Below, piece after piece: positions 2,102 through 17,709 of a stretch of DNA of 20,174 nt (the first letter of the stretch is position 1; each line of letters opens with the position of its first letter). Source of the stretch: a virus; IMG/VR virus record IMGVR_UViG_3300042924_000879, positions 1 to 20,174 of that record. One strand, given 5' to 3'. Below the pieces are notes generated by a model that searched no databases, had not been told where the DNA came from, and saw only the letters and a program-made list of their open reading frames with translations. The position numbers were made by a program, and so were the translations under genes.

Positions 2102-2116
2102 ATCGCTATTTTTAGT

Positions 2117-2126
2117 TAAATACCAC
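2117..2126 (-). promoter_or_regulatory. GTGGTATTTA motif, copy 4 (before small 90-residue gene)
   Basis: An exact 10-base match directly after the TAA of the neck protein, followed by ACTAAAAATAGCGAT and an ATG. Together with copy 2 it shares an extended pattern of the form TTTAACTAnAAAnnnGCGA. Confidence 0.5.
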
Positions 2127-2630
2127 TTATGTCGGAACTTCGCAAGAATTGTGCGGATATTCAAAGTCAAAGTTGGCAGTCGCCTGCCATCCAGCAACCT
2201 TGTCATCCCTCGCCTCCACGAATCGCGTTGCACTCACCGCATCCTGTAAGGTGTAATCCTTCGCAGGGTCATTCGTGAACTTGCTGATAAAGTCACGCAT
2301 TATATATAAAGTGTCGTTCAGCACCTCGTCTTCGTTGTCAGTCCACCTCGCTACAACGCTACCTGTCACCACTGTTGATAGGTTGCGGCTATCCTCAACG
2401 CGGTCCATCACAAGCACACTCACGCCAAGCGTAAGCGCACCAACATTCGCGGTCATCGATTGCAGGTCAGCAAACAGCAAAGGGTAAACAACCCTATCCC
2501 TGTCCGTTGTCCGCAGGTTTATCGTGTTGTCCGTTCCTATCGCCAGCGGGTCGCCGAAGCCCACGCTGTTGATTTGTGGATGTGCCGCCGCAAAGGTCAG
2601 CAGGTCGTTCTTTAATTGCACCCAACTCAT
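2127..2630 (-). CDS. Neck / tail completion protein (unassigned family)
   Basis: The 167-residue protein begins MSWVQLKNDLLTFAAAHPQI. An N-terminal helix is followed by alternating beta strands (VVYPLLFADLQSM, VLVMDRVEDSRNLSTVVTGS) and a helix with conserved-looking aromatic and Asp positions (TLYIMRDFISKFTND). It ends ATANFDFEYPHNSCEVP. This outline resembles small completion or terminator proteins after connectors in Bacteroidota phages. It lies 39 bases after the connector gene, and a copy of GTGGTATTTA follows its stop directly. The structural role is inferred. Confidence 0.6.
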   Translation of the reverse strand: MSWVQLKNDLLTFAAAHPQINSVGFGDPLAIGTDNTINLRTTDRDRVVYPLLFADLQSMTANVGALTLGVSVLVMDRVEDSRNLSTVVTGSVVARWTDNEDEVLNDTLYIMRDFISKFTNDPAKDYTLQDAVSATRFVEARDDKVAGWQATANFDFEYPHNSCEVPT

Positions 2631-2669
2631 AGTACTGCTTTAATTTGTTAATGTTCTTCGCGTGTGCCA

Positions 2670-3236
2670 TTAAAAAGGATAGAATCGTTTTTCGGGATAA
2701 TCCAATGGGTCACGGAAGCGTCCACGCTTTCCCAATGCCATCCCTGTTTGGTAACTACTGCCGTTCGGGTAAATCGTGTCAATCGCCGTTGGTGGGTTGT
2801 CAAACAATGGGTAACTGGCGTGGTTCTCCTGCAAGTAGCGGGTAATGCGCTCCGTGTACCACTCCGCATCGTTCTTCACCTTGTCCATCAGTTTGAACAC
2901 CTCATCCACGCTCATCGGGTTGCTTTCAGTGCTGGTCCTGCGGTCCATCCCTTTGTTCATATACTTGAAGGAAAGCACCATCGGAAGTTCAAAGTACATC
3001 CATTGCACGATAGCAGGTTGGATGTAATCTTCAAGCAGGGTCGTGTTTAGCGCGGTCACCGAACCGCTCACCACTTGCGTCTGCACTTCTTTGTACAACG
3101 CACTGCCAAGCGCAGGTTGGATGTGCATATCCTGAACCTTGACCAACGTGGGCCTGATTTGGGTATAGGCTACGTTCTCGTTGATGACGCTGTTTTCCAG
3201 CAGGTATTCTTCCGATACAAATAGGGCGATGCTCAT
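2670..3236 (-). CDS. Head-tail connector / head completion protein
   Basis: The 188-residue protein starts MSIALFVSEEYLLENSVINE at a TAATG shared with the portal stop. It has the helical pattern of a DUF6712-like connector family found directly after portal genes in Bacteroidota phages: RPTLVKVQDMHIQPALGSAL, LLEDYIQPAIVQWMYFELPM, then MSVDEVFKLMDKVKNDAEWY and ERITRYLQENHASYP. The short disordered C-terminus (PEKRFYPF) follows. It would bind under the portal and extend the neck. The family name is from memory; the position supports the role. Confidence 0.72.
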   Translation of the reverse strand: MSIALFVSEEYLLENSVINENVAYTQIRPTLVKVQDMHIQPALGSALYKEVQTQVVSGSVTALNTTLLEDYIQPAIVQWMYFELPMVLSFKYMNKGMDRRTSTESNPMSVDEVFKLMDKVKNDAEWYTERITRYLQENHASYPLFDNPPTAIDTIYPNGSSYQTGMALGKRGRFRDPLDYPEKRFYPF

Positions 3237-5287
3237 TACACTACACGTTTAACTGTTGTTCCTTTTTTTACGACTAACTGCTGAACCCACATATGTCTGC
3301 AACTTGGCCTGTGGTTGCCGTTCGGAAGGGTAAACCAACCGCCTCTGCGCTCCCAAACATTCCAGCCAACCAACTGCCCGATGTCGTTTATATCGCTCCT
3401 TGTGTACAACTTTGTCGCGCTCAAATCCAGCATTGTTTGGCAGAACTTGCGGCTTTTGTCGTAGCCATCCGCCTTGCTCAATCCTGCATATTCTGGCCGC
3501 CAATCGTAGCGATAGCGCACCTCCACCACTTCCTCCTCAACTGGCGTTTCTTTCGTTGCGATGTCAATATCGCGGCTAATCGGGAAGCGGTTTTTTTCAA
3601 GAAGGTAAGCAATGCGTTTGCGAATCTTCGCAGGGCTGACCTTCAACGCCTCGGCTATTTCTTTGACCGTTGCCAGCCTGTTCTTCTTGCGATACGCCAT
3701 AATTCGCTTATCCAACTTCTCTTCCTCCTCATCGACCGCAAACGTTTCAGGGTCGCCTTCAAGCGCAAGTTCCCAACTATCAACCACATCAAAGCCTTCC
3801 GCGTCATCGCCATATTGCGACCCAACCGCAGCCAACATCCGCATCTCTGCGTCTTCACCCTGTGCGCTGAACTCGGCTTGGCCATCGGTCAGGAAGTCGT
3901 TAATCTGCTCGGCGGTCAAGCCAAAGCCACTGCCCAGCATCGTGCGGGCCTGCGCCTCGCTAATCTTGCCCGATTGGTAGTTGCGGACAATCCGCATCAG
4001 GTGCTGAAACTGCCGCCCTGTCATCGTCCGCAGTGCCTCGTTCACTGGTTCGCTCGCCAATGCCTCCGCCGCAGGTGCGCCTTCGGGTTGCGTGGCTTCT
4101 TCTTCCAATGGTTCAAGTCCTGCCTTCTCGCGCAGTTCATTCCGCGTCATTATCTGGGTCAGCACCTGTTCGCTCAACTGCTCCGTGACTGGGTCGGTAG
4201 GGCATAAATACAAGCCCTCGATGTCGTTAAACCCTGCGATGTAGTTAATCATCCGCTCGACTATCATCACCCGCGCGTTGACGTAGGTGTTTTTGAAAAG
4301 TTCGTAAGCCTCAATCAATTCCTTCCTTCCACCCAACTGCCCTTCGGTTTTCACGCCGAACAGCATCGGGTTGGTGACGTTGTGCGCGACAAATATCTCC
4401 TCCTGAATCTGCTTGTTCAGCAGGTCAAACTGCTTGTCCAAATCGCTCGGCGTTAGCGACTGGATGCTCGGTGCGCTTTCCTTGCCGCTACTGAACGTCA
4501 GCACAAATCTACCTGCGTTCCCCGCACCGCTGAACTTGCGGCGCATCATACGCTCAATCTCATCCTTTTCTTCCTCCGTAGGTATGCCATCAGCGAAGTT
4601 TATCAACTGCCCACCCCAAAACTGGTTGCGGATGTTGTTGATGTGGAAGCGCGCTATCTCCGCATCACACTCAATGTACGCGAGCGCACCTTGATAGTTC
4701 GGAAGCGGGTAATGCTGAACGCCTGCCGAATAGTGGCGGTAGTAAAACATCTGCTTTCCAACGCGATTCTTCTCATCAAACTTCGGCATCTTCTCCACCT
4801 CGTTGCCTTTCGGGAACTGCTGAATCATACGCGCATCGTACCAATCGGCGATTAGGAACATATCATCATCCAAACTCACCCGTACCTTTTGGAATGGAAC
4901 GTGTTCAACAAAGGCGATGCCGCCACCCCTGTTCCACGTCACTGCAAGTGCGAAGCCGTTAAACAACTCCAAATCCAGCACCAACTTCTCGGTAAGGTCG
5001 TTCAAATCATCCTCAACATTCGGGTCGCGGATGAACTCCTCCGCTCTTGCTTGCTGTTCTACCGTGCCTTTATCGCTTGCCTTCCATCCCTTGCCTACGA
5101 TGTAGTGAACCTTGCCGTTGACGATGGCGCAGTGCTTCGCGCTTTTGTGGTAGTTGTCCAGCAGATAGTACGGGTATTCGTTGCGTTCACCAAACAGCAC
5201 CATATTGGCCTGCTTGTTTTCCAGCATCACAGGCAACTGGTAGTCGGTGGTGGGGATGAAACTGAATGCGAATTTAGAAGCTGACAT
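3236..5287 (-). CDS. Portal protein with C-terminal extension
   Basis: I chose the ATG at 5287 (MSASKFAFSFIPTTDYQLPV), which overlaps the adhesin stop by 14 bases, over one 48 bases further upstream. Residues about 20-400 form the portal body: RNEYPYYLLDNYHKSAKHCA, VHYIVGKGWKAS, RFHINNIRNQFWGGQLINFA, NVTNPMLFGVKTEGQLGGRK and LLNKQIQEEIFVAHN. The portal forms the dodecameric DNA entry ring and the terminase dock. Past it, residues about 410-683 form an extension with a helical acidic linker, a helix-turn-helix-like segment (RLATVKEIAEALKVSPAKIR) and a Trp/Cys/His domain (LVGWNVWERRGGWF, RPSCRHMWVQQLVVKK). That last domain also occurs as a C-terminal module in head proteins of related phages. 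The whole protein is much longer than a minimal portal (about 400-500). Confidence 0.85.
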   Translation of the reverse strand: MSASKFAFSFIPTTDYQLPVMLENKQANMVLFGERNEYPYYLLDNYHKSAKHCAIVNGKVHYIVGKGWKASDKGTVEQQARAEEFIRDPNVEDDLNDLTEKLVLDLELFNGFALAVTWNRGGGIAFVEHVPFQKVRVSLDDDMFLIADWYDARMIQQFPKGNEVEKMPKFDEKNRVGKQMFYYRHYSAGVQHYPLPNYQGALAYIECDAEIARFHINNIRNQFWGGQLINFADGIPTEEEKDEIERMMRRKFSGAGNAGRFVLTFSSGKESAPSIQSLTPSDLDKQFDLLNKQIQEEIFVAHNVTNPMLFGVKTEGQLGGRKELIEAYELFKNTYVNARVMIVERMINYIAGFNDIEGLYLCPTDPVTEQLSEQVLTQIMTRNELREKAGLEPLEEEATQPEGAPAAEALASEPVNEALRTMTGRQFQHLMRIVRNYQSGKISEAQARTMLGSGFGLTAEQINDFLTDGQAEFSAQGEDAEMRMLAAVGSQYGDDAEGFDVVDSWELALEGDPETFAVDEEEEKLDKRIMAYRKKNRLATVKEIAEALKVSPAKIRKRIAYLLEKNRFPISRDIDIATKETPVEEEVVEVRYRYDWRPEYAGLSKADGYDKSRKFCQTMLDLSATKLYTRSDINDIGQLVGWNVWERRGGWFTLPNGNHRPSCRHMWVQQLVVKKGTTVKRVV

Positions 5288-6080
5288 AGGTGTTGTTGTT
5301 ACTTGGTGCAACGTAGGTTTCAACTGCGGGTTCAATGTAGGCCAATCCTGTTTCCACGACCCTTGGCGTTCCCATCAGGAATCTCCGCATCGCTCTTGTG
5401 TAGCGATTTGACGTGCTACCCTTTGAATGCGTGCCTTGATTGCCGTTATTCATATTCACTGTGAAAGCCTGATTAGCATCGGCTTGCGTTGATGACCAAT
5501 AGGTGTGATTTGCAAAGTTGCCCAAGCCATCAGCGGCCAATTTCGTGTACATTTCGGACAATTCATCAAGCGAAGGAAGAAACCAATCGCTATACCCGTT
5601 CAGTATCAATTCATCGCAAAGCCTCGCGCTTATACCCGATGTAGGGCAAACTGCGATAATGTCAGCAGTGTTTAATTGACCATAGCCAATTTCAGATGCA
5701 CTTGCGTCTTGCTGTATTGCCGTTCCCTGACACCCCCACGGCGCGTTCGTTGCTTGGTCAGCCGCCGCGCTAATGTATGCATAGCCGCCATCTTCAAACA
5801 CGAACAAGCCGCCGCCAAGGGTATCACCTGCCGCGTAGCCGTTAGCATCCTGATACACCTCGTATTTGTACTGTCCCTTTTCAAGCGCACCCAACGTAAA
5901 CGTGAAGCGGTCGTATCTCTCCTCGTAACTGGATGCGTTGCTAATCGCGTCAATGTACACCGCCGTGCTGGTGTTCTTCGCGATGTTGGTCAGTATCAAC
6001 TTGTAGATGGTCGCGTTGGTTGCGCGTTCAGTCCACGTGACGTTGATGGTATTCGATTGGCTGGCTTTCAGGTATAGCAT
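5274..6080 (-). CDS. Adhesin-like protein with DUF1566 (Lcl, C-type-lectin-like) domain
   Basis: The 268-residue protein has two parts. Residues 1-95 form a beta domain (NTINVTWTERATNATIYKLI, FTLGALEKGQYKYEVYQ) often found at the N-terminus of Bacteroidota phage appendage proteins. Residues about 96-234 match DUF1566/Lcl: GQLNTADIIAVCPTSG, LCDELILNGYSDWFLPSLDE, MYTKL, TYWSSTQ, and a closing RYTRAMRRF. This fold is used as a ligand-binding surface and in some phages as a variable receptor-binding domain. The tail (ETGLAYIEPAVETY) resembles attachment tails of virion proteins. It starts 6 bases after the preceding glycosyltransferase stop and overlaps the portal start by 14 bases. Confidence 0.75.
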   Translation of the reverse strand: MLYLKASQSNTINVTWTERATNATIYKLILTNIAKNTSTAVYIDAISNASSYEERYDRFTFTLGALEKGQYKYEVYQDANGYAAGDTLGGGLFVFEDGGYAYISAAADQATNAPWGCQGTAIQQDASASEIGYGQLNTADIIAVCPTSGISARLCDELILNGYSDWFLPSLDELSEMYTKLAADGLGNFANHTYWSSTQADANQAFTVNMNNGNQGTHSKGSTSNRYTRAMRRFLMGTPRVVETGLAYIEPAVETYVAPSNNNTYVSF

Positions 6081-6085
6081 TACCT

Positions 6086-7156
6086 CTAAATACCACGCGC
6101 GACTGATTTGTACAAATTCAGCCTTGCCTCGCTGATTTGCTGGATGTCAAACTTGCCCTGCATCTTGGCACGTAGCCGCTCACCCATTTCCTTCGCCATC
6201 GCAGGTTCGTTAATGAATGCCCGCATATACTTATACCACAGTTTGTCCTTCTTTTCAGGCACAAGCCACCCATCCACGCCATTCTCGATGCAATCCGCAT
6301 ACATCGGCACCTCGCTGGCAATAACCGCCTTTCCCATCCACGCCGCCTCCGTTATCTTCAACTCCGACTTCAATCGGTTGAACTTGGTGTCGCGAAGTGG
6401 TGCAAGGCTCACGTCCACCCAATTGTAACCTTGAACGTAGCTGTATATGTCAGCCGCTTGGATGCGTGAGTAGTTGTTGTTCTTGCCCTTGTTGCTGAAC
6501 ACCTGCTCATACCCTTGATAAATCGGGTTGTTTTCGTTCCACCCTGCCAAGTAAATCATATACTTGCCATCCAATTCCACCTCATCCGACAGGCGTTGCA
6601 GTGGTGACCGCATCAGTTCCACATCCTCGGTGTGCTGGGCCGCGCCGAAGTAACCGAACCGCACCCGCTCGCTTTGCGTTGGCTGTTCCTGAAACTGCTT
6701 GTATTGCAAATAAGGCGTGTTCGGAAATATGCTGACGTTCTTGTTGAACTTCACCAACTCATCGCGCAGGTATGTCGTGGTCGTGATGATGTGGTCAGCT
6801 ATGCGGATGTGCTTTTCGATTATCGCAGGCATCTTCGTGTCGTGGTAATGCCTGTAAAAGCTATGCCCTGTGCCTAAATGCCAATAGTCATCCATATCAA
6901 GGATGATGCGCGCGCCGTATTGCCGAAGGATGTTGGCCACCTGCTCAACCGCCTCCAACGGCCCTGCAATCCACGTTCGGTTGTACAAGAATAGGTCAAT
7001 CGTCTTCAACTCATCCTCTTCCATACGCCTGATGTCATCGATGCTGACAAAATCCACCACTCCACCGCATAGGTCGTGAACGGCCGCGTTTGGCATTTCA
7101 AGGCGGTAGTAACTGCATCCTGTTGGGTGTTGGTTGTAAACGATGCATATTCTCAT
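6086..7156 (-). CDS. Glycosyltransferase, GT-B fold (GT4-like), in the structural block
   Basis: The 356-residue protein begins MRICIVYNQHPTGCSYYRLE, an N-terminal Rossmann strand with a loop like those of phage and host GT4 enzymes. ILDMDDYWHL and HIRIADHIITTTTYLRDEL are typical of a nucleotide-sugar transferase that tracks 'D.DD' and 't.T..L...l' motifs. FGYFGAAQHTEDVEL opens the second Rossmann domain. LKSELKITEAAWMGKAVIAS is the donor-binding E-x7-E-like region, and the end is helical. It is full length. A terminator lies just upstream, so it probably has its own promoter in 7157-7190. The next gene is a lectin-like adhesin, hinting that the acceptor may be a tail fibre or other virion protein. 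It is not closely similar to the enzyme at 16385-17251. Confidence 0.87.
   Translation of the reverse strand: MRICIVYNQHPTGCSYYRLEMPNAAVHDLCGGVVDFVSIDDIRRMEEDELKTIDLFLYNRTWIAGPLEAVEQVANILRQYGARIILDMDDYWHLGTGHSFYRHYHDTKMPAIIEKHIRIADHIITTTTYLRDELVKFNKNVSIFPNTPYLQYKQFQEQPTQSERVRFGYFGAAQHTEDVELMRSPLQRLSDEVELDGKYMIYLAGWNENNPIYQGYEQVFSNKGKNNNYSRIQAADIYSYVQGYNWVDVSLAPLRDTKFNRLKSELKITEAAWMGKAVIASEVPMYADCIENGVDGWLVPEKKDKLWYKYMRAFINEPAMAKEMGERLRAKMQGKFDIQQISEARLNLYKSVARGI
6087..6096 (-). promoter_or_regulatory. GTGGTATTTA motif, copy 3 (before adhesin gene)
   Basis: An exact 10-base match at the end of the glycosyltransferase (again Arg-Gly-Ile-stop), 6 bases before the adhesin ATG. Confidence 0.5.
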
Positions 7157-7182
7157 TGTGCAGATTTAAGGGTTTGTGTTGT

Positions 7183-7226
7183 GCAAAAATAAGAAAGCCA
7201 ATGCGACCCTTAACGCACTGGCTTTC
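7183..7226 (-). terminator. Rho-independent terminator after the tail tube gene
   Basis: On the coding strand GAAAGCCA-G-TGCG pairs with CGCA-T-TGGCTTTC (7226-7193) around an eight-base loop, 12 base pairs with one mismatch. TTATTTTTGC (7192-7183) follows. It lies 23 bases after the tail tube stop and separates the capsid/tube section from the glycosyltransferase section. The tract after the stem also contains TATTTTTG, which fits the Bacteroidota -7 consensus TAnnTTTG, but a matching -33 element is not clear. Confidence 0.85.
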
Positions 7227-7249
7227 AACCAACCCAAACTGAACTACAC

Positions 7250-7798
7250 TTAATTCGCGCCGCCTGTGATTTGCGTACCTGACGTCACACCTGCGATGAC
7301 AGTCGATAGCACCTCCCTGCAAGGCTGTGCCTCCATCGCCGTGAACGTCAACTCATAACCACCACGGTCACCCATCGCTGTTCCTGACTGCGCTGTGCCG
7401 CCAGTCACCTCGATGCCATTCGTTTCACCCAACAGCCAATACTTGCCGTTGCGGTCAGTGACAATGGCTAACAACCTGCCGTTGGAAGCAAGGCGCAACT
7501 GATTGCGCACCTCTTGCGTGAGCCTGTTGATGACCAAAGTCATTTCTTGCTGGTAAAAGATAGTGCCGTTTTCAACGCTGGCGTTTGTCGTTTCAGTGAA
7601 CTGACCCACGCCCTTCGGCAATTCGTATTTGTAGAAGGCATTGCTTCCCGAAGCATAACCTGTAAAGCCAGTCACCGTGCCTGTGGTGTTGGTGGCTACT
7701 GACCCTGTTACGTTCCACGATGCAAGCCTAATTTCGCTAATGCCGCCGACATTGTTGCGGCATCCTAATGCATAACCTGATGTAAGTGCGCAGCTCAT
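7250..7798 (-). CDS. Probable major tail (tube) protein
   Basis: The 182-residue protein begins MSCALTSGYALGCRNNVGGI. The 'C.LT.Gy.l.C....GGI..I' opening, the YELPKGVGQFTETTNASVEN centre, FYQQEMTLVINRL and the GETNGIEVTGG to GGYELTFTAMEAQ region resemble a tail tube family in Bacteroidota siphophages. The beta-rich character and size fit a tube subunit. It has its own terminator downstream and an A-rich leader (AACAAGAAAAAATATG) upstream, consistent with strong separate expression. The alternative is another abundant head-associated protein; position next to the capsid gene does not distinguish the two. Confidence 0.65.
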   Translation of the reverse strand: MSCALTSGYALGCRNNVGGISEIRLASWNVTGSVATNTTGTVTGFTGYASGSNAFYKYELPKGVGQFTETTNASVENGTIFYQQEMTLVINRLTQEVRNQLRLASNGRLLAIVTDRNGKYWLLGETNGIEVTGGTAQSGTAMGDRGGYELTFTAMEAQPCREVLSTVIAGVTSGTQITGGAN

Positions 7799-7820
7799 AT
7801 TTTTTCTTGTTTATAGTGTC

Positions 7821-7852
7821 AAAAGAAAAAGAAGGGCAGGTTTCCCTGCCCT
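7821..7852 (-). terminator. Rho-independent terminator after the major capsid gene
   Basis: On the coding strand an 8-bp perfect stem AGGGCAGG / CCTGCCCT closes a GAAA tetraloop (7852-7833). A T-rich tract TCTTTTTCTTTT (7832-7821) follows directly. It starts 4 bases after the capsid stop codon, so it is well placed to limit read-through into the tail tube gene. Confidence 0.88.
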
Positions 7853-7856
7853 GTCA

Positions 7857-8843
7857 TCAGCCAGCAGGTGTGGTTGCGTTGCTCGCTTTGTACAGCACCA
7901 TAAACTCGGGATAAGCAAATTGCACTCCGTATTTCAGCGCGGCTTGGAAGCGGATTTGGTCGTTGTCGTAACTCGCCCAGATGCGGAAGGTATCCTCATC
8001 TGAAAGCAGGTCAGTTCCGAAGAACAGGTTGCTCAATGAAGTGGCTACAATCCTACGCGTGCCATTCAATCCGTTCACCGCGCAGATTCGCATATTGGTT
8101 GCAGGGAAAAACATCTCACCCGCACCCAACTGCCCAAGGTCGCCCTGATACAGGTTCAATCCTACCAGTTTATTCGCAAGGATTCGGTAGGTATCCCATC
8201 CGCAGAAAGCGTAGATGTCGTCCTTGCTGATGATTTCAACAGGGATGTTCTGATACACATTTTCAAACGCGCTCACGATGGTGGTGTCACTGAAAGCCGC
8301 ACCTGCAAGGCTCGATACGATTGAAGCGGATGCAGTGGTCTTCTCCATCAGGTGCAACAAACCAACGGTCTTGTTCAGGTTTGCGTCACCGCTCAATGAT
8401 GCAGATGAACCAGTCCACCCTGATGCGCCTGTTGCAGTTGTTGACTGCCAAATAGCGTTCTCGATGTTCTTGGCAATCTGCTTTGCTTTCTGCTCGGCAA
8501 ACGCTTGCTCGAAAGGTACGCCTTCGTAGTTGCTACCCTGCGTCAACTGGGTTTGCATCCAGTACTGTTCAAGTGAACGAGGACACAACTCCTCTTGCAC
8601 TTTTACACGTGCCACGCTGATGTTACGCTGGCTGAACGTGGTTGTACCTGACGCATTCCACGCACAGGTGGATGCGGCTTGGAATACTGCATCGGTGTCC
8701 ATTAAGTTCAACGATTCCTCGTATTTAACTCCGACACGCTTCTGCATCAATGATTGGGTCTTCGCATCGAAAACCGCTTTTGTCAGCAACGGCAAACGCT
8801 GTTGCTCGACATAGGACGTTAGTCCCCCAAGTGAAAATGCCAT
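7857..8843 (-). CDS. Major capsid protein
   Basis: The 328-residue protein starts MAFSLGGLTSYVEQQRLPLL and has the features of HK97-fold shell proteins of Bacteroidota phages. These are an N-terminal helix, a central stretch with FEQAFAEQKAKQIAKNIENA, a VEIISKDDIYAFCGWDTYRI segment near residue 210-230, and a C-terminal AALKYGVQFAYPEFMVLYKA beta region close to the end. It follows the protease and scaffold genes and is followed at once by a strong terminator, consistent with a highly expressed structural gene. No N-terminal delta domain is obvious, in line with a separate scaffold. Confidence is high from context and overall pattern. Confidence 0.88.
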   Translation of the reverse strand: MAFSLGGLTSYVEQQRLPLLTKAVFDAKTQSLMQKRVGVKYEESLNLMDTDAVFQAASTCAWNASGTTTFSQRNISVARVKVQEELCPRSLEQYWMQTQLTQGSNYEGVPFEQAFAEQKAKQIAKNIENAIWQSTTATGASGWTGSSASLSGDANLNKTVGLLHLMEKTTASASIVSSLAGAAFSDTTIVSAFENVYQNIPVEIISKDDIYAFCGWDTYRILANKLVGLNLYQGDLGQLGAGEMFFPATNMRICAVNGLNGTRRIVATSLSNLFFGTDLLSDEDTFRIWASYDNDQIRFQAALKYGVQFAYPEFMVLYKASNATTPAG

Positions 8844-8850
8844 AATCTTT

Positions 8851-9438
8851 TTATTTTAGGTTTTTTAGGTTATTTGCTAATGCTTCAAAATTCGTGTTGC
8901 GCGACAGCTTGATGTTCTCGACAATCGCATCGCTGGTCCGCTTGCGCGGCTCTGCGGTTGGTACTTTGCTCATCTTCTGAACCTCGGCATCCAACTGGTC
9001 AAAGCGCGCGGTATTGGCTTCCATAGCCCCTGCCAACTTCGACATAATCTCATCCAGCTTCGCTTCAAGTGCGCTAATTCTCGCGTCTATTTCGGATTCG
9101 GCGGCCTCGCCTTCGGGTGCAACTTCAATCTCCACTTCCTGTGCGGCTACTTCTTCCTCCACCACTGGCTCACCTGCTGGCAAATCTCCGACTTCGACAA
9201 TCTTGCCGCCTTCGGTTGTGATAACGCCAACTTCGGGTACAGTGTGCTGGCCATCAGGTGCGGGTAGCATCCCTTCCTCGGTCACAACGAATACAGGCGT
9301 ACCTGCAACAAGGTCACCATCAACGCGCACCATCGTGCCGTCTTCCAATTTGTAATCTGCAAAGTTTTGCGGCGTTGGCGTTGCGGTAAACTTCCGCAAG
9401 GCGTCAGCCAGTTCAGTTAAACGATTTGCTATGCTCAT
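8851..9438 (-). CDS. Capsid scaffold-like protein
   Basis: The 195-residue acidic protein begins MSIANRLTELADALRKF. Residues about 26-80 form a small beta domain (YKLEDGTMVRVDGDLVAGTP, then TVPEVGVITTEGGKIVEV), followed by a Glu/Val/Ala-rich linker. A coiled coil follows at about 114-157 (ISALEAKLDEIMSKLAGAME, FDQLDAEVQKMSK). The C-terminus is basic then helical (EPRKRTSDAIVENIKLSRNT), as expected for the part that binds the capsid shell. Its place between the XkdF-like protease and the major capsid gene strongly supports a scaffolding role. The start ATG is preceded by one copy of the GTGGTATTTA motif 26 bases upstream. Confidence 0.8.
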   Translation of the reverse strand: MSIANRLTELADALRKFTATPTPQNFADYKLEDGTMVRVDGDLVAGTPVFVVTEEGMLPAPDGQHTVPEVGVITTEGGKIVEVGDLPAGEPVVEEEVAAQEVEIEVAPEGEAAESEIDARISALEAKLDEIMSKLAGAMEANTARFDQLDAEVQKMSKVPTAEPRKRTSDAIVENIKLSRNTNFEALANNLKNLK

Positions 9439-9453
9439 AGGTCGCTTTTGTAG

Positions 9454-10056
9454 TTAAATACCACGTGTTTGGATAGTATGCAAAAAAACGCTGAACGCTT
9501 CTTCAAGGCTCGCCATCGCCGCCTCCAAACTCGATTCGGTTGCCTGCATCCCAAAGTAGCCCTCAATGCTGAACCCTGTGAACTGGTCGCGCTCTTCCCA
9601 AACCTTGTCGTTCTCCACCTTGAACGAACCAAACCAACTGCCATCAGGCGCATCCTCAAAGCCTTTGGGTGGATTCACCCCACGCTCGCGGTCAATCAGG
9701 TACGATTCAAACATATACACTCCATCCAGTGGTTTGCTGTGTTCGGCGTTTACCTTCGCTTGATTTTGTTGCTTGAAGTACTTCTGAACCATCTTGCGGA
9801 TGGTGTCTTTGTCAAACATCACGTAGTACTTGCCGCGGGTGTCATCCTGCCGAATGATTGGCGTGTCTGCCAGCATCAGCGGGCCTGTCAGGATACGAAG
9901 TGCGGCATCTTCTGCGAAGCGATGCTGTTTGGATAGGGCAATGAAAGGCCGCTCGATTGCGGGTGATTCCACGAGGCTGACGTAGCTGACGCCTTCGCCA
10001 TCCTCATCGATTGTCATTAAGTAAACAGGTAGCTGTTCCATATCGTCAAATACCAT
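9454..10056 (-). CDS. Capsid maturation protease, XkdF-like
   Basis: The protein (about 200 residues from the ATG at 10056, or one more from an overlapping GTG) contains the XkdF-family succession: GVSYVSLVESPAIERPFIAL, ALRILTGPLMLADTPIIR, TRGKYYVMFDKDTIRKMV, VNAEHSKPLDGVYMFESYLI, DGSWFGSFKVENDKVW and FTGFSIEGYFG. The NAEHS histidine and the GFSIEG segment are the most conserved points. In PBSX-type heads this protein cleaves scaffold and prohead proteins. It directly precedes the scaffold-like protein and the major capsid protein, in the expected order. A second ATG at about 10041 (MEQLPVYL) is a credible shorter start because a motif like that upstream of other genes sits just before it. 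Confidence 0.85.
   Translation of the reverse strand: MVFDDMEQLPVYLMTIDEDGEGVSYVSLVESPAIERPFIALSKQHRFAEDAALRILTGPLMLADTPIIRQDDTRGKYYVMFDKDTIRKMVQKYFKQQNQAKVNAEHSKPLDGVYMFESYLIDRERGVNPPKGFEDAPDGSWFGSFKVENDKVWEERDQFTGFSIEGYFGMQATESSLEAAMASLEEAFSVFLHTIQTRGI
9455..9464 (-). promoter_or_regulatory. GTGGTATTTA motif, copy 2 (before scaffold-like gene)
   Basis: An exact 10-base match. It overlaps the last codons of the protease (Arg-Gly-Ile-stop) and is followed by ACTACAAAAGCGACCT and the scaffold ATG. The downstream bases resemble copy 4. Confidence 0.5.
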
Positions 10057-11642
10057 CACGCGCCCAACGTTGCAAATTCACTCATCCTGCGAAGCCTGCC
10101 ACTAACCGAGCGGATGTCTGATTCAACCACATACGCCCGCATCCCTGAGTTTTGTCCGTTAGCAGGTGGGTTGAGCAGTTGCGCATTCGGGTTGGTTGCT
10201 GTTGGCGCGGCCATACCTCCTCCGCCTTCACCGCCTCCCATTGAGCCACCGCCGCCACCACCGCCGCCGCTTGGCGATTGAAATTGCTGCTTGCTGATTT
10301 GCGCAACTCGCACCAACCCTGCCGCTGTTGCCGCTGCCGCCGCGATGACCGCACGAACGGGTGCGGAAGGGTCGGGTATAGTCATTTGGCTTAAGTACGC
10401 CGCCTGCGCCGCACGGAAGGTCTCAATCAGCGCAATTGCCATATTCATCTTCTTGTTGACCTCAAAGGCGCGGCGTTGTCCCTGCTCGGTCTTCCCTGCA
10501 AACAAGGTCGCAAGATTGCCAATGGTCTGAAAGCCCAGCCTTGCCGTCTCAATTTTCGCTTGCTCAATCTGCTCCTCGCGCTGCCGCTGCCTTTCTGATT
10601 CCTTGAGCATCGCGTCAACGCCATTCCGCTTAATTACGTGCAACCCCTGCTCTTGCGTCTCCGCGCTTTCAAGAAATTGCGTCAGGCCATCCACGCGCTC
10701 CAAGTACACCAAATCCTCGGCATCCTTCAACGCCTTTTCACGAATCTTCCGCTGTTCAATCATCCGCGTATCGTGCGCCTTTTGGTCTTCTTCTTGCTTT
10801 TTTAACTGCTGTTCCTTGACGTATGTTTCGTACTGCGCCCGCAGCAGGTTGTGCTGGTGGCGTGCCTCGTCTTGTTCCTCCGCTGTCTTTGCCATCCGCA
10901 TCCGTTCACGCGACAGTTCGAACTCCCGCGCAAAGATTTGCTCCTGACTTGCGCCTCGTGCCTTCAATATTTCAATCTCCCGCTCCATCGCCTGCGTGCC
11001 ATCGGCAATCGCCTTGTTGCTTTCGGTCTTGATGCCAAGGAAACGCTTGACCGCACCCGTTAGCTTATCGAAGTTCTCAATCAGCAAGCCAATAGCCACC
11101 ACAGCCGCGCCAATTCCAGTCGCAACCAATGCCAACCTAAATGCCTTCATCGCGCCTGTGCTTGTGCCAACGGCCAACGCATACGCTCGCTGTGCCACCA
11201 CGTTCAGATTCACCATTACAGCCGAATCCTTGTTCAACACGTTAGCGACCGCCTGCACGCCGTTCAGCAACGCCAATGCACCCTGCACCTTCATCATCGC
11301 CTTCTGCAAGTCCTCATTCTCATCGCCAAACAACGCCGCCGCACCCTGCGCCACTGCGAATGCACCTGCCAAGCCTTGACCCACGCCAAGCAAGGTGTCC
11401 AGCGTTCTCGTGTCGGAAGCCATCGCCTTGATTTGCGCCTGCGTGTCGCCAATTTGGTCAGCAAGTCCACCCGCCTGCGCTTGCAACTCGCGGAAGCGGT
11501 CAGTGTTGCGTTGCCCTGTTTGTTCGAGCTGCAACATCTCCTCGCGCAACGATTTAAGTTGCGACCTTGCCGATTGCGTGCCTTTCTGCGTTTCGTCTTC
11601 CAATCGAAGACCAACGACAACGGTGTTTTTTATATCTGCCAT
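10056..11642 (-). CDS. Tail tape measure protein
   Basis: The 528-residue protein has a long helical N-terminus (SARSQLKSLREEMLQLEQTG, AQIKAMASDTRTLDTLLG) and Ala/Gly-rich hydrophobic segments around residues 85-110 and 160-190. A long charged coiled-coil follows (about 210-355), then RRAFEVNKKMNMAIALIETF with ASPVR-type helices, the usual tape measure ending. A poly-Gly region (about 455-477; GGGGGGGG then MGGGEGGGG) is coded by a GC-rich repeat around 10245-10270. Length sets tail length: at about 1.5 angstrom per residue this implies a tail near 80 nm, short for a siphophage. It sits after two large tail proteins and before the head protease, the reverse of the usual head-then-tail order. 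Confidence 0.87.
   Translation of the reverse strand: MADIKNTVVVGLRLEDETQKGTQSARSQLKSLREEMLQLEQTGQRNTDRFRELQAQAGGLADQIGDTQAQIKAMASDTRTLDTLLGVGQGLAGAFAVAQGAAALFGDENEDLQKAMMKVQGALALLNGVQAVANVLNKDSAVMVNLNVVAQRAYALAVGTSTGAMKAFRLALVATGIGAAVVAIGLLIENFDKLTGAVKRFLGIKTESNKAIADGTQAMEREIEILKARGASQEQIFAREFELSRERMRMAKTAEEQDEARHQHNLLRAQYETYVKEQQLKKQEEDQKAHDTRMIEQRKIREKALKDAEDLVYLERVDGLTQFLESAETQEQGLHVIKRNGVDAMLKESERQRQREEQIEQAKIETARLGFQTIGNLATLFAGKTEQGQRRAFEVNKKMNMAIALIETFRAAQAAYLSQMTIPDPSAPVRAVIAAAAATAAGLVRVAQISKQQFQSPSGGGGGGGGSMGGGEGGGGMAAPTATNPNAQLLNPPANGQNSGMRAYVVESDIRSVSGRLRRMSEFATLGA
10245..10270. repeat. Low-complexity GGC/GGT codon repeat in the tape measure gene
   Basis: A run of glycine codons (read as GCC/ACC triplets on the plus strand) encodes eight consecutive glycines, with a second short Gly tract just downstream. 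It is a flexible linker between the helical body and the C-terminal tail. Such triplet runs can change length by replication slippage. Confidence 0.8.
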
Positions 11643-13885
11643 TAGCGTACCTGTACTGGTGTTGTGTATGTTGGAATGACCTCGCCATCCACTTCGGATT
11701 CAAGGTTGTAGTTCAAATTCGGTGTTACCGTTTGCGCTGTAAATTCGGCAAGGTTCAGGATGCGGCGAAGCGTTACCCTGCACATCACGTTCTGACCAAC
11801 ACGATAGTCGCTGATTTCCAATAACCGCCATTTAACTCCGTGCCAGTAGACAGGGATGCGGAAGTCAAGTGCCGCGATGTCGGTAACGGTGAGCAAGAAG
11901 GTGGCCTGTACGGTCATCGCTTCCTTGCTTGCAATTTCCTCAATGTAGGTCTTCCAGTAGCCGTTGAACAGGTTGTTGTTCGTGTATGGCGTGTAACCGC
12001 CTTGACCATCGGGAAGGGTAAAGTAAATCTGCTTCGGCATACCAAATGCCAAGTCTTGTTGCGGATCATAAGGATTGTCAACGTGACCAATGTAAGGCAA
12101 AAAAGTGCCTGTAACTTGCGATGATGCCTGTGTTATATTTTGCAAATAGAACCAATCTTGCGTCGATCCACTTGGCGCAGGTGTCATTTCGATGTAGTTG
12201 TACTGCGCTATGCGGTATCCTGTTTTCATCGGCCTTAACGTGCCATCGGTTTCAACGTCAAAGGTGCGGCCAAGTACGATATTGGTTTGATATTGCGCAG
12301 GAATGACCGTCGCGCACTTGGTTTCAATCCGCTGTTCACCTTGTCCGTAAAAGTTGTCCGTGTCGTAAATCCTGCATCCGTAACCTTCCTGCCAAGTGTC
12401 TTGATAACTTTTAGCAAGTGCCTCGCCTCCGTTTCGGTATGCAAAGACAAACTGCTTGCGAAGTTCAGGATCGCCCATTGTCATCTGCATCTCCTGCGCT
12501 TCGTCTGATTTCTGCGACCAGTCCACAACGCCTGATGTGTAGAAGTCAATAAACGGCTCGACGTAAATCAAGGTTGGATCAAGCGGCGATTGGTAGAAGT
12601 ACAGGTTGAACATTTTTTGCAGGTCGGATAGCAGGTCAATCTGCAAGGTGTCGGCAGGTAGTGCCGTTCGCATATCAATCGACACGCCATTCAATCCTAT
12701 TCGCTGAACTAAATTAATTTGAATAGTGCCATTGTCCAATAATTCAATGCCGCCATTGTTTGCTGTTATCACCAATTTTAACGTGTCGTTTCCAGCCAAA
12801 ACAATTGAATAGTTGCGCAACAATATCGGGTCGTCAATACCTGTTTCTTGAATTAACCTGCCGCCTACGTCTTTTAGAACCGTGCCACCGCTATCTTGAA
12901 TTGCCCAATCATAAGTAAAGCCAACGGATAAATTTTTGAACCCAAATGACAGGCCAAGATTATACTTGCCCATATAGCCACTTGCAGCAGTATAAACGCC
13001 TGTTGCCATATCAAATTTGCCATCACCTGAATTGGTGAATGGTGCAGAATCATTGTCGTAAACCACCGTGTAAGTCCAAGGCGCATCATTAACATACCCA
13101 GATGCTTGAACATAGCAGTTGTTGTCGCCACTTGCCTGTGTAAAAGGCTCGCCTGCGTATGGAATGACTAATCGCTCAAACTCGGTGCTTTGAAAGAATG
13201 TCGATTCGTAGCGGTATCCGTGCTGCGCGAAAATCAAGTCCACCATCTTCTTCACCCAGATATTCGGTCGCTGAATTTCAATCGGCACAAGCCTAAATAA
13301 ACTTTGATAAGCGTTGGCTATTACGCCTCCCAAATAATTGTTCGGCACGTTAAAACAATGCGGTAATCCTAACGCATCAACTGCTCCATAAACAAACCCA
13401 CTTGCGTCGCTGAACGTGTCATCCCAACTTCCAGTCACCAGCGATTCGGTGAAGGTGTGGTTCATTCCAGTCACGCCCACCGTGTCCACCAGTTTCACTC
13501 CTTCCATCGCTTTGAACAGGCTCACCTCCTCGCCGTAGATGCCAACCTCATAAGTCGCAACCCCTCGCGTTACTGACATCGACAGCATCTGCATCGTGCC
13601 ACGAAATACCTGCACCCCATCATTCCAAAGCGCGCACTTTACCTGCTTGTTTGGCGTGAACCCGCCCACAAAGGATTGCACGTTGTACGCATAGCGGAAG
13701 GCGATGTCATTGGCTTTGCTGGATGGCAAGGCGATTGTCTTGCTGAACGCTCCGCGCCGCTTGGTGATGTCGGCCAAGTCCTGAACGCTGAACGTGATAG
13801 CGATGTCAGTATCCTGCGATAGGTCAAGGTCATAGCCTACTGTTGGGTTGTCCGCGTCAGGATAGCAAACGAATTTCGTCATCAT
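11642..13885 (-). CDS. Large tail / baseplate protein
   Basis: The 747-residue protein begins MMTKFVCYPDADNPTVGYDL. Its N-terminal domain contains FSVQDLADITKRRGAFSKTI and LPSSKANDIAFRYAYNVQSF, which I recognise as a typical opening of tail-tip or baseplate proteins in Bacteroidota phages. It is mainly beta-structured with many aromatics, and has no catalytic motif I can point to. The end (CRVTLRRILNLAEF, then a Thr-rich tail) is ordinary. The tandem ATGATG means the start may be 13885 or 13882; the first gives an ATGA overlap with the upstream stop. Its stop TAATG is shared with the tape measure start. Hub, tail-associated adhesin or central baseplate protein are all possible. Confidence 0.7.
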   Translation of the reverse strand: MMTKFVCYPDADNPTVGYDLDLSQDTDIAITFSVQDLADITKRRGAFSKTIALPSSKANDIAFRYAYNVQSFVGGFTPNKQVKCALWNDGVQVFRGTMQMLSMSVTRGVATYEVGIYGEEVSLFKAMEGVKLVDTVGVTGMNHTFTESLVTGSWDDTFSDASGFVYGAVDALGLPHCFNVPNNYLGGVIANAYQSLFRLVPIEIQRPNIWVKKMVDLIFAQHGYRYESTFFQSTEFERLVIPYAGEPFTQASGDNNCYVQASGYVNDAPWTYTVVYDNDSAPFTNSGDGKFDMATGVYTAASGYMGKYNLGLSFGFKNLSVGFTYDWAIQDSGGTVLKDVGGRLIQETGIDDPILLRNYSIVLAGNDTLKLVITANNGGIELLDNGTIQINLVQRIGLNGVSIDMRTALPADTLQIDLLSDLQKMFNLYFYQSPLDPTLIYVEPFIDFYTSGVVDWSQKSDEAQEMQMTMGDPELRKQFVFAYRNGGEALAKSYQDTWQEGYGCRIYDTDNFYGQGEQRIETKCATVIPAQYQTNIVLGRTFDVETDGTLRPMKTGYRIAQYNYIEMTPAPSGSTQDWFYLQNITQASSQVTGTFLPYIGHVDNPYDPQQDLAFGMPKQIYFTLPDGQGGYTPYTNNNLFNGYWKTYIEEIASKEAMTVQATFLLTVTDIAALDFRIPVYWHGVKWRLLEISDYRVGQNVMCRVTLRRILNLAEFTAQTVTPNLNYNLESEVDGEVIPTYTTPVQVR

Positions 13886-15075
13886 AGCGCGGTGTTTTCG
13901 TAGCCTACCTGAACATCAACGGTGATGGCCTGCAATCGGTCATTGATGCGCTTCATAATCGCGAAGGTATTGGTCTGCACCACCACAGGGACGAGCGCAC
14001 CTGACAACTCAATCCAGCATTCAGGGCTGTAAATCATCTCTTGAAGCCAACTGAACTGCGCATCCGATAGCCAATCGCTTTGTAGGTTGTAGGTGTCGCG
14101 ATAGGTGACGCTCCACTGCTTGTCAAACTGGTCATCGCCGTACACCGTGTTGTTGTATCCGTAGGTTTGTCTGTTTACATTTACCGATTGTCGGTTCTTT
14201 TTTGTAAACGTGTAGCCATCCACTCCGCCGTACATATTGCGGAAGAAGACCCGCAGTTGGTCGTATCGCTCACAGTTGTCAATCGTGTAGGTGTATGCCT
14301 GTGTGCGGCTGAATGCAGAAGTATTGCCGCCTGCTGTGTTGGCGGTCATCTGCACTGCTATTGTGCCTCCTTGCGTTGGAAAGTTTACCGAGCCTGCATT
14401 GCCATCACTGCACTGCGCACTGGTTAAGTTGTACAATCCTCTCGGGCCTGCGTTAATCAAAGGCGCAAGTCCGCTAACCGTTCCTGTCACCAAGAATGGC
14501 GAACGCGTTGCCCCGCTGTCGTAGGTGACGCGAAGGGCAACACCTGTCACCGCCGTGTCCACAACCATCGACAGGAAGTCATTGCTTCCGCTGGTCAGCG
14601 TGCTACTTACTGGCCTATTGCTCACCACCTTCAATGCCACAGCGTCACCGCTCACCGTTGCCGCATAGTAAGTCGTTGGCGCGGCAATGGCTGTGTTGTA
14701 ATCTTGTTGCCTGAACGCCGCCTGCCACGCGATGACTGAACCTGTTGTAGTTCCTGTCGCCACCGTTGGCGGATTGCCGTACTCCTCGCGGAAGGTCAGG
14801 TTTGCCTTGACCGCATAGCCGCCTGACTGCCATCCGCTGGTTGTCTGCGGAACTGCGGGTAATATCAGCGTTTCAACAACCTTGCTAACTCCAAAGAATC
14901 CGAAGCTCGTGGTTGGCAGTTTGTCGCACTTCAATCGTGCGCTTGCAGTGCTTCCACTCACATCGCAGATGTAGCGAAAGTTTGCGGATGCGGTTAGGTC
15001 ACTGCTGACCACCACTACGTCAGAATTGCCGACAGGAAGTAAGGCGGGAAGGGAAGATACAATCGTTATGCTCAT
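13882..15075 (-). CDS. Large tail structural protein (distal tail type)
   Basis: The 397-residue protein starts MSITIVSSLPALLPVGNSDV and is rich in Thr, Ser, Ala and Val with predominantly beta character, typical of virion proteins. The C-terminal third (DNCERYDQLRVFFRNMYGGV, WLSDAQFSWLQEMIYSPECW, MKRINDRLQAITVDVQVGYE) matches the conserved end of a tail protein that I recall as widespread in Bacteroidota siphophages and paired with a larger protein like the one downstream. It lies between the gp10-like gene and the 747-residue tail protein with 4-base overlaps on both sides. A distal-tail or baseplate role is likely; the specific role is not proven. Confidence 0.7.
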   Translation of the reverse strand: MSITIVSSLPALLPVGNSDVVVVSSDLTASANFRYICDVSGSTASARLKCDKLPTTSFGFFGVSKVVETLILPAVPQTTSGWQSGGYAVKANLTFREEYGNPPTVATGTTTGSVIAWQAAFRQQDYNTAIAAPTTYYAATVSGDAVALKVVSNRPVSSTLTSGSNDFLSMVVDTAVTGVALRVTYDSGATRSPFLVTGTVSGLAPLINAGPRGLYNLTSAQCSDGNAGSVNFPTQGGTIAVQMTANTAGGNTSAFSRTQAYTYTIDNCERYDQLRVFFRNMYGGVDGYTFTKKNRQSVNVNRQTYGYNNTVYGDDQFDKQWSVTYRDTYNLQSDWLSDAQFSWLQEMIYSPECWIELSGALVPVVVQTNTFAIMKRINDRLQAITVDVQVGYENTAL

Positions 15076-15665
15076 CGTCTGGTTGCTGTTTGTTTGCCAA
15101 ATTCGGAAAGTAGGCGCAGGCTTATCTTTTGCCCTGTGATGTCGGCAATGGTCACGGTTAATTCGTTTACCCGCTTGTCGGTCATCGTATCCGTGTAGAA
15201 TGGTCGTGGCTCAATGCCTCGCCTCTTGATGGCGCGCGCTATGTTGTACGCGGCCTCGTCAATCTCCTCCTTCGGGATGCCCAACGCCTTGTCAATCGCC
15301 CACTTGCGGATTGCCGCCACGTGTCGCTTGCTGGGCCTGATGTAGCGGAAACTGAACGGCCTGCCGCGCTTGTTCTGCACGCCATCAACGCCGTAGTTCA
15401 CATAGGCCCAATACTCCGCACCTTCAAGGTCAATCTTCAACGCCTGCCCATCAAGTCGGAAGTCGGAAGCGCGGAACGACTGGCGAAGGTTTAGCGTGGC
15501 GGTAGCATCGTACCTATCCACTGCTTTATTCATCGCATCAATCGCGTCATTAAGCCACCGTAGTACTGCGCTCTTTACATCCTTGCTATCGGTCAGGCTT
15601 ACGGATTCGGTAACGTCCGAACCCTTGCTGGAAAGCTGGCTGGTTAAACTTACATCGAACTTCAT
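15072..15665 (-). CDS. HK97 gp10-like neck / tail completion protein
   Basis: The 197-residue protein begins MKFDVSLTSQL. It has an N-terminal helix region and a beta-rich centre (EYWAYVNYGVDGVQNKRGRP, then FSFRYIRPSKRHVAAIRKWA). It continues AAYNIARAIKRRGIEPRPFY. The 'yw.yv.yGv.G......G.pfsf' and 'rgi.prpfy.d' features resemble HK97 gp10-family completion proteins that sit between head and tail in siphophages. It follows the tail chaperone pair after a 32-base gap containing one copy of the GTGGTATTTA motif, and overlaps the next tail gene by 4 bases. The exact station (neck or tail terminator) is inferred. Confidence 0.7.
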   Translation of the reverse strand: MKFDVSLTSQLSSKGSDVTESVSLTDSKDVKSAVLRWLNDAIDAMNKAVDRYDATATLNLRQSFRASDFRLDGQALKIDLEGAEYWAYVNYGVDGVQNKRGRPFSFRYIRPSKRHVAAIRKWAIDKALGIPKEEIDEAAYNIARAIKRRGIEPRPFYTDTMTDKRVNELTVTIADITGQKISLRLLSEFGKQTATRR

Positions 15666-15671
15666 CAGCTA

Positions 15672-15681
15672 TAAATACCAC
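15672..15681 (-). promoter_or_regulatory. GTGGTATTTA motif, copy 1 (before gp10-like gene)
   Basis: An exact 10-base match on the coding strand between the tail chaperone fusion stop and the next ATG, 6 bases upstream of that ATG. It is non-coding here. Confidence 0.5.
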
Positions 15682-15697: not shown

Positions 15698-16398
15698 CTA
15701 TTGCAGGTCTTTTGCTAACCTCACGTAATTCATAAACTGCCGAGCGGGCATCGCAAAGACCGCATCCATTTTGAGCGGGTCGCGCTTGGCTATCAGCACA
15801 TACGCCACGCCAAGCCATCCGTAATCGGGTTTGGCTACGCCTTGCCCGCTGTCTTCTTCTTGCTCGCCTCCACGAAATAGGTCTGCATAATCTTCAATAA
15901 AGGCTCTGAATGACGCAAAAAAAAACAGGCAAACCCCCACACGTCAGCCATCTTCGCCTTCTTCATCGCCTCCGCCCTGTCCGCGTGTTTGCCGCCATCA
16001 TACGCCAATGTCTTGCCGTACCACGTCACCTCACGCGTTAAACTGGCGAGCAACAGGTGCAGATTGGCAACCACCTCCCTATCGCTGGTCAGCTGATAGT
16101 TTAGCAACTCCATCATCTGCCCTGCGCTCATTTGGTCGATGAACCACTCCATCCTGTACCGCTTGCCGCCAATGCGAACCACCCGCTTGGCAGGTAGCAT
16201 CGACAGCGCACCGCACTCCTTGTCAATCTTTGCCGCCCTTGCGTTTAGCTGTTCAATCGTCCACCCTTCAACAGCATTTTGGTCGAATCCATCCACGATG
16301 CAGACAGTGTTGACCTTTTTCCGCAATGCGCCCATATCAGGATCGATCGCGTTCAGCTCTTGGAACTGGGCAACGGTTAGGCGGTTAAGTAATTTCAT
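15698..16398 (-). CDS. Tail assembly chaperone, -1 frameshift fusion (gpGT-like) form
   Basis: After 160 residues of the short form the ribosome can slip back one base on the T run. It then continues in the -1 frame for 73 residues (FASFRAFIEDYADLFRGG ... RLAKDLQ) to a TAG at 15698. The fusion is about 233 residues. The extension carries YGWLGVAYVLIAKRDPLKMDAV and MPARQFMNYV, a 'W..V..lA......K.d.v..m....f..y' pattern I associate with the T half of such fusions, which contacts the tail tube subunit. The extension has no convincing independent start: its only upstream start codon in that frame is a GTG lying inside the short form, ahead of the slippery run. The short form alone ends at 15835. 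Confidence 0.8.
15835..16398 (-). CDS. Tail assembly chaperone, short (gpG-like) form
   Basis: The unshifted frame gives 187 residues starting MKLLNRLTVAQFQELNAIDP and ending EASKKKTAGKA. The N-terminal half has the 'LT..QF..L' opening and helical mid-section (MEWFIDQMSAGQMMELLNYQL, VVANLHLLLASLTREVTWYG) seen in tail assembly chaperones of Bacteroidota siphophages. The end is lysine-rich. Its position before the tail tape measure, and the slippery run with an overlapping -1 frame, identify it as the analogue of lambda gpG: it would coat the tape measure during tail assembly and not be part of the virion. The start overlaps the glycosyltransferase by 14 bases. Family sequence is poorly conserved, so the call leans on context and the frameshift. 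Confidence 0.82.
   Translation of the reverse strand: MKLLNRLTVAQFQELNAIDPDMGALRKKVNTVCIVDGFDQNAVEGWTIEQLNARAAKIDKECGALSMLPAKRVVRIGGKRYRMEWFIDQMSAGQMMELLNYQLTSDREVVANLHLLLASLTREVTWYGKTLAYDGGKHADRAEAMKKAKMADVWGFACFFLRHSEPLLKIMQTYFVEASKKKTAGKA
15919..15925 (-). promoter_or_regulatory. -1 ribosomal frameshift site (T_TTT_TTT)
   Basis: The coding strand has nine consecutive T residues (15925 down to 15917). The first seven lie in phase as the last base of TGT followed by TTT TTT, a canonical X_XXY_YYZ heptamer. Slipping one base back keeps full pairing of both Phe-tRNAs and opens the frame ending at 15698. Its position between the two halves of a tail assembly chaperone is where tailed phages conserve this event. 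I did not identify a downstream stimulatory hairpin with confidence. Confidence 0.85.
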
Positions 16399-17251: not shown

Positions 17252-17709
17252 TGGTTCTTGATTTTGGCTGGATTTCCGTATGCCAACGCCTTGGCAGGTA
17301 TTGACCGCGTCACCACTGAACCCGCGCCAATGGTCGCGCCTTCGCCTACTTCAACGCCGCATACAATCGTTGCATTTGCGCCAATGTTGCAACCCTTGCG
17401 AAGTATTGTCTTCCTGAACCTGCCGCTCTTCATCCAGTCGCCGTGTACGCTTGGCAGGTGGTCGTTGGTGGTCACTACATTCGGGCCGACAAACACATCA
17501 TCCTCAATGGTGACGCCGTGATATATGAGCGCGTGGTTTTGGATTTTGCAGTTGTCGCCAATGGTGACGTTGTAGTCGATGTGTGCGCCCTCGCCAATGA
17601 TGCAGTTGTCGCCAATCGTTGCACCTGTGCGGATGTGCGCGAATGCCCAAACGCGGCAGTTCTTGCCAAGCGTGACATTCTCCTCGATGATTGCTGTTGG
17701 GTGTATCAT
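17248..17709 (-). CDS. Hexapeptide-repeat acyltransferase (left-handed beta-helix)
   Basis: The 153-residue protein is built almost entirely of hexapeptide repeats (IIEENVTLGKNCRVWAFAHI, ATIGDNCIIGEGAHI, VTIGDNCKIQNHALI, then VEVGEGATIGAGSVVT). It ends IPAKALAYGNPAKIK, the usual close of these trimeric acetyltransferases. The loop TTNDHLPSVHGDWM interrupts the helix where family members place catalytic or sugar-contacting residues. It resembles the WlbB/WbpD type that N-acetylates amino-sugar nucleotides in surface glycan synthesis, so acetyl-CoA and a nucleotide sugar are the likely substrates. It starts 10 bases after terL and overlaps the following glycosyltransferase by 4 bases, implying a shared pathway. 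Such a gene inside a packaging/tail operon is cargo rather than core virion machinery. Confidence 0.88.
   Translation of the reverse strand: MIHPTAIIEENVTLGKNCRVWAFAHIRTGATIGDNCIIGEGAHIDYNVTIGDNCKIQNHALIYHGVTIEDDVFVGPNVVTTNDHLPSVHGDWMKSGRFRKTILRKGCNIGANATIVCGVEVGEGATIGAGSVVTRSIPAKALAYGNPAKIKNQ

Follow-up and report, generated by a model that had tools for sequence, protein, structure and literature searches.

Phage sigma switches are known from a few model systems. In phage 7-11, the sigma factor gp47 reads bipartite late promoters whose positions are like those of phiEco32 and whose consensus is different (PMC8948821). For Flavobacterium johnsoniae, a published study describes promoters with a -33 element TTTG and a -7 element TAHHTTTG, transcription starts 4-5 nucleotides (nt) downstream, and nearly invariant -7 bases T-12, A-11, T-8, T-7, T-6 and G-5 (PMC6847099). 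Here we analysed a viral sequence, IMG/VR record IMGVR_UViG_3300042924_000879, whose entire 20,174 bases form the window and whose clear genes all lie on the minus strand. A ten-base word, GTGGTATTTA, recurs at its gene junctions. Judged from the sequence, this word is very probably the -7 half of a bipartite late promoter, TTG-N18-GGTATTTA, of a Bacteroidota phage, and we estimate a probability of about 0.68 that these are late promoters at which the RNA polymerase of the host acts with a sigma-like protein of the phage.

An earlier note on this DNA had reported four exact copies of the word on the coding strand and held that they were not due to chance. Both claims were borne out, as scanning the window revealed four copies on the minus (coding) strand and none on the other, while dinucleotide shuffles gave 0.01 expected copies and 0 of 100 shuffles reached four. 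When two mismatches were allowed, 16 matches were found against 13 expected; because this count is at chance level, only near-exact copies carry signal. The distance to the next start codon, noted as 6 to 16 bases, was measured as 15, 6, 16 and 6 nt. The longer downstream pattern common to two copies is real (AACTAAAAATAGCGAT and AACTACAAAAGCGACCT), and so is a near copy, ATGGTATTTG, which has TTTG upstream at N18 and is followed by an ATG after 5 nt. All copies do lie at junctions as described, but 'intergenic' is wrong for the copies at 6087 and 9455, which share bases with the final codons and stop codon of the preceding gene (both ending in RGI and a stop). The near copy marks a fifth, orthologous site that was found across relatives, and a sixth, J0, seen in relatives ahead of the terminase genes, falls just past the window end. 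The sites within the window are listed below, with the frequency of TTG at gap 18 among the dereplicated sites of relatives.

J1 word GTGGTATTTA, 2117..2126, minus strand: 15 nt before the ATG (2101) of a 90-residue gene ahead of the tail gene
J1 -33 element CTTG, 2143..2146, minus strand: TTG at gap 18 in 24 of 25 sites
J2 word GTGGTATTTA, 6087..6096, minus strand: 6 nt before the ATG (6080) of a 268-residue gene that precedes the portal gene; shares bases with the RGI-stop of a glycosyltransferase
J2 -33 element TTTG, 6113..6116, minus strand: TTG at gap 18 in 47 of 49 sites
J3 word GTGGTATTTA, 9455..9464, minus strand: 16 nt before the ATG (9438) of a 195-residue gene ahead of the capsid gene; overlaps the protease codons RGI-stop
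J3 -33 element TTTG, 9481..9484, minus strand: inside the protease codons Phe-Leu; TTG at gap 18 in 60 of 60 sites
J4 word GTGGTATTTA, 15672..15681, minus strand: 8-mer GGTATTTA at 15672-15679; 6 nt before the ATG of a 197-residue gene (start 15665), heading a unit of 197-residue, 397-residue, 747-residue and tape measure genes
J4 -33 position, 15698..15701, minus strand: ATAG, not TTG; its TAG is the stop of an upstream open reading frame of 80 residues
J5 near copy ATGGTATTTG, 10047..10056, minus strand: 8-mer GGTATTTG; 5 nt before the ATG (10041) of the head maturation protease
J5 -33 element TTTG, 10073..10076, minus strand: TTG at gap 18 in 71 of 82 sites

Relatives of the putative capsid protein were collected from viral contigs in two scans (best 80 of 395 and best 80 of 417) and grouped by capsid similarity, with single linkage at 85%, into clades A (that of the window), B, C, D and E and some small groups; counts for clade A include the close group A2. 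The upstream regions of 255 records gave 500 junction rows, after dropping rows where the downstream gene aligned beyond its first 8 residues, without a nearby ATG, or with less than 70 nt upstream. This revealed a separate word in each of clades A, B and C. The clade A word TGGTATTT was present in 125/125 rows (J0 18/18, J1 7/7, J2 28/28, J3 32/32, J4 10/10, J5 30/30), the clade B word GATATTT in 99/99 rows (J0 6/6, J1 8/8, J2 19/19, J3 29/29, J4 11/11, J5 26/26) and the clade C word GGTATATTT in 43/45 rows (J1 3/5, J2 11/11, J3 13/13, J4 5/5, J5 11/11), the remaining 2/5 clade C rows at J1 carrying AGTATATTT. None of the 229 rows of clades D and E has the A, B or C word. No site was recognised in the 77 of these rows that belong to J0; the other 152 mostly carry TACATTTA, GACATTTA or CACATTTA, J3 has TACAAATC, and most J5 sites of clade E have TACATATC, all D/E words being read by eye from a TTTTGCA/ATTTGCA anchor. 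A search for enriched k-mers returned the words of clades A, B and C and no clear word for D or E.

Whole records were then compared by strand. The coding strand carries 3-5 copies of GTGGTATTTA in clade A records, 5-8 copies of GATATTTA in clade B records and five copies of GGTATATTT in the clade C record G008, and the opposite strand carries 0, 0-1 and 0 copies, respectively. In the 80 loci of the first capsid scan, exact GTGGTATTTA was counted 77 times on the coding strand, spread over 41 of the loci, and never on the opposite one, compared with 14 and 0 for a control word spelled backwards. Capsids of clades A and B are 82-84% identical. Sites within a clade share descent; the independent units are the 5-6 non-homologous junctions in about four lineages. 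As these junctions changed the same bases alike within each lineage, we infer a trans-acting reader.

The second element keeps a fixed distance. For the spacing analysis the 77 D/E rows at J0 and the two rows of a mixed record, L067, were excluded and identical 60-nt upstream regions were merged, which reduced 421 to 260. Of these dereplicated sites, 217/260 have TTG at a distance of exactly 18 nt before the 8-mer, compared with 0-33 at other gaps of 8 to 27 nt and a background rate of 0.029 per position; the D/E pattern was set afterwards and is loose, and the D/E gap counts lean towards that pattern. At J0 the TTG is found at gap 18 in 15/20 sites, and in the window 4/5 sites have it, with J4 as the exception. 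Conservation in clade A extends to the GT preceding the 8-mer. The ATG follows the 8-mer by 5 nt in 82/82 J5 sites and by 5-6 nt in 24/24 J4 sites; at the other junctions the distance varies between 5 and 18 nt, apart from one value of 2 and one of 23. Because the ATG gap varies while the -33 spacing holds, an element acting in translation is disfavoured. At J3 the protease codons are frozen: across 8 records of A and B, a single codon is used for each of 6/6 invariant amino acids, against 29/123 over the whole protease gene (hypergeometric 1.1e-4). In relatives, the -33 place of J4 often holds an ACAC-like stretch. The J1 and J3 leaders (window 2102-2116 and 9439-9454) both have an A-rich stretch and then AGCGA ahead of the start codon, which is perhaps a translation signal.

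Among the options raised in the earlier note, a phage-specific late promoter element is supported by the constant spacing of the second conserved element, by the recurrence of these junctions in every relative, always before late gene blocks, and by the sigma-like gene of relatives. As at late promoters of a phage sigma factor, a common motif stands ahead of the late units and is rare elsewhere. Early in infection, host RNA polymerase would transcribe the early genes, including a sigma-like gene by the terminase genes. The sigma-like protein would then bring the host core polymerase to one TTG-N18-GGTATTTA promoter on the coding strand before each late transcription unit (J1-J5, with J0 outside the window), switching on the genes for packaging, capsid and tail. 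Transcripts from J4 and J5 would begin at the AUG or no more than 1-2 nt away from it; an ATG at 5-6 nt would leave a leaderless or near-leaderless mRNA if starts fall 4-5 nt downstream. Lineages would have retained the -33 half, with the -7 half shifting in concert at all promoters through nACATTTA, TATATTTA, GATATTTA and GGTATTTA. We have moderate confidence that the sigma-like protein is the reader, and moderate confidence as well in the late timing and the leaderless starts. The fuller proposal, that the phage sigma and five or six late promoters co-diverged stepwise with -33 fixed, -12/-11 replaced and leaderless late mRNAs, is tentative and falls somewhat short of even odds. The change of words was observed directly, as were the motif, its spacing, its position and its conservation; the protein side of the co-divergence is hypothetical.

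The candidate reader is a 193-residue sigma-like protein encoded beside the terminase genes, upstream of the late genes, in the fuller A, B and D relatives. Its identity is 57-58% between A and B and about 40% to D. The NCBIfam model sigma70-ECF (TIGR02937) matched 2/5 members weakly, with an expectation value (E) of 0.005 at best, and the PHROG RNA polymerase sigma factor match was also weak (0.056). Comparing the profile of the protein with PDB sequences returned three matches, none of them a sigma (best E 0.024), and searching named phages with the clade D protein gave no match. A scan of relatives with the D protein kept the best 80 of 310. An AlphaFold (AF2) model consists of two helical parts with a loose linker, and its 16 best Foldseek matches were all sigma factors or sigma chains of initiation complexes. 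VIA-align gave Z scores up to 8.0, including 62 residues of SigW region 4 at 2.2 A (Z 6.8) and 80 residues of RpoE region 2 at 3.7 A (Z 7.4), a size of Z that can be ordinary for helical models. A small protein with a DnaA C-terminal domain (PF08299, 3.8e-10; L081:11524-11901) is encoded directly before the sigma-like gene. A host -7 element of canonical form, TATATTTG, also stands 8 nt ahead of where the sigma-like gene probably starts with GTG (L081:11827-11866). It is found there in 31/31 A and B records viewed, overlapping the end of the DnaA-C-domain gene and its codons for YIC. TTG at N18 accompanies it in only 2/21 tested A loci, and the sequence only hints at a host-type promoter of the sigma-like gene.

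A cultured phage with a similar arrangement is Nonlabens phage P12024S (NC_018271, Inhavirus; our record L292). It carries an annotated sigma-70 region 2 protein (gp33) between the VRR-NUC and large terminase genes, which matches PF04542 (1.4e-5) and aligns to the 193-residue family with an hhalign probability of 78%. P12024S repeats CGTTAMTW 3-4 nt before seven annotated starts.

P12024S CGTTAMTW sites, 167, 3019, 5400, 21269, 23949, 25189 and 26790: before late gene starts

These sites are probably its own late promoters. At several of them, an AAAACAAA-like stretch is seen about 20 nt upstream.

Several observations weigh against a phage sigma factor reading one bipartite promoter. At J4, 0/24 dereplicated sites across all clades have TTG at gap 18, and this junction may need an extra activator. 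Record L067 is mixed, with the A word at J3 and the B word at J2; as it matches A at 97.6% identity as far as base 1362 and B at 88% from base 1615 onwards, it is a natural recombinant or an assembly chimera with its break inside the capsid gene (1362-1615). The window ends before the sigma-like gene, and the protein is known from relatives only. In Pfam, none of the four members tried from A, B and D matched a sigma family with E of 1 or below, the mean predicted local distance difference test score (pLDDT) of the model is 71.5, and none of its Foldseek matches was significant (best E 0.16). Searches for the sigma-like protein gave no homologue in any C or E record (in one of them 2/10 records matched, both of clade D), a negative limited by the fact that C and E records may stop short of the sigma region. 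Between A and B, region 2 of the sigma-like protein shows no clear excess of divergence over region 4 (47/81 versus 43/69 identical), so that a shift specific to region 2 is not visible in bulk identity. In P12024S, finally, CGTTAATA is not clearly enriched by count (about 2.4 expected on both strands, two minus-strand copies), and because this is near chance the motif signal there rests on position.

The alternative that survives best is that the promoters are read by the host primary sigma factor (sigma-ABfr), with or without a phage activator, the words reflecting host preference in each lineage. The window sites resemble Bacteroidota sigma-ABfr promoters in the -33 TTTG, with TTG at fixed spacing (N18) at all of them except J4, in the TTT of the -7 element and in the similar spacing. 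Among the D/E words, TACATTTG, found at J5 in the clade D records L150 and L157, fits the published host consensus outright. The -7 consensus of sigma-ABfr, however, is not matched in the window, where GGTATTTA (four sites) and GGTATTTG (J5) lack T-12 and A-11 and G-5 occurs only at J5. Clade A has G-12 G-11 for T-12 A-11 and its exact copies have A for G-5, breaking 3/6 of the positions described as nearly invariant in the host (PMC6847099). Every site of one lineage, moreover, deviates alike. We therefore consider reading by the host sigma unlikely.

Another phage DNA-binding protein, such as the DnaA-C-terminal-domain protein, might instead bind the 10-mer as an activator or repressor. The PF08299 protein adjoins the sigma-like gene and clade A conservation reaches the GT before the 8-mer, but for a simple binding site there would be no need of a TTG placed exactly 18 nt upstream or of an ATG gap of 5 nt, which makes this explanation improbable. 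The 10-mer also does not appear to resemble a DnaA box. An element acting in RNA, either a translation enhancer or a processing site as the earlier note had offered, would suit the closeness of the motif to start codons and the A-rich sequence downstream at J1 and J3; it is very improbable given an ATG gap of 5 to 18 nt across sites and clades alongside a constant TTG spacing of 18, with the TTG falling within the coding sequence of the upstream gene. That the words are junctions where modules recombine, the last option of that note, has a negligible probability: short identical words do stand at gene borders and L067 is an A/B mosaic, but its break lies away from the motifs, and the lineages kept gene order and changed the words in place.

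The window encodes a terminase, two glycosyltransferase-like proteins, a tape measure protein, a protease, capsid, portal and tail genes, the capsid gene being assigned from its position and from relatives. Amid the late virion genes we observed a glycosyltransferase (PHROG 7162; window 6086-7156), a second glycosyltransferase-like protein recognised by eye and without PHROG match (16385-17251) and a hexapeptide-repeat acyltransferase-like protein, likewise recognised by eye (17248-17709). Named phages gave no near-DNA match to the window and no match to its clade A capsid; the clade C capsid matched four records, all Nonlabens. Relatives of the terminase are Flavobacterium phages (52%). Together with P12024S these suggest a host within the Bacteroidota, probably within the Flavobacteriia. 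A capsid search of genome contigs returned 40 stretches, none of them a relative, so that no host could be assigned from a prophage.

This family offers a large natural set of close relatives in which one promoter element is altered at all its genome sites and a candidate reader gene is known, which makes co-change of a regulator and many sites testable. If the proposal is true, the family is a natural series for following the evolution of promoter specificity, and it is a possible source of orthogonal promoters for Bacteroidota. A literature search that covered few subscription journals found no report of late promoters read by a phage sigma factor in Bacteroidota phages.

Compared with known systems, P12024S has a similar layout near its sigma gene, a sigma-70 region 2 protein and a repeated motif before late starts, and its capsid is a distant relative, which the clade C query matched at 26% (E 2e-3). 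It differs in the CGTTAMTW motif with its AAAACAAA-like upstream part and in its AT-rich genome. With phiEco32 (gp36) and 7-11 (gp47), the family of the window shares a small phage sigma-like gene with a low-copy motif ahead of late units, and related phages with similar promoter positions and differing consensus (PMC8948821, PMC4331800). Those phages differ in having enterobacterial hosts and, for 7-11, the consensus GTAAtg-(16)-aCTA; their sigmas are only 15% identical, and dependence on them is demonstrated in those sources, whereas for the window's family it is deduced. The lineages here are much closer to each other than phiEco32 is to 7-11, and because of this the stepwise shift is visible.

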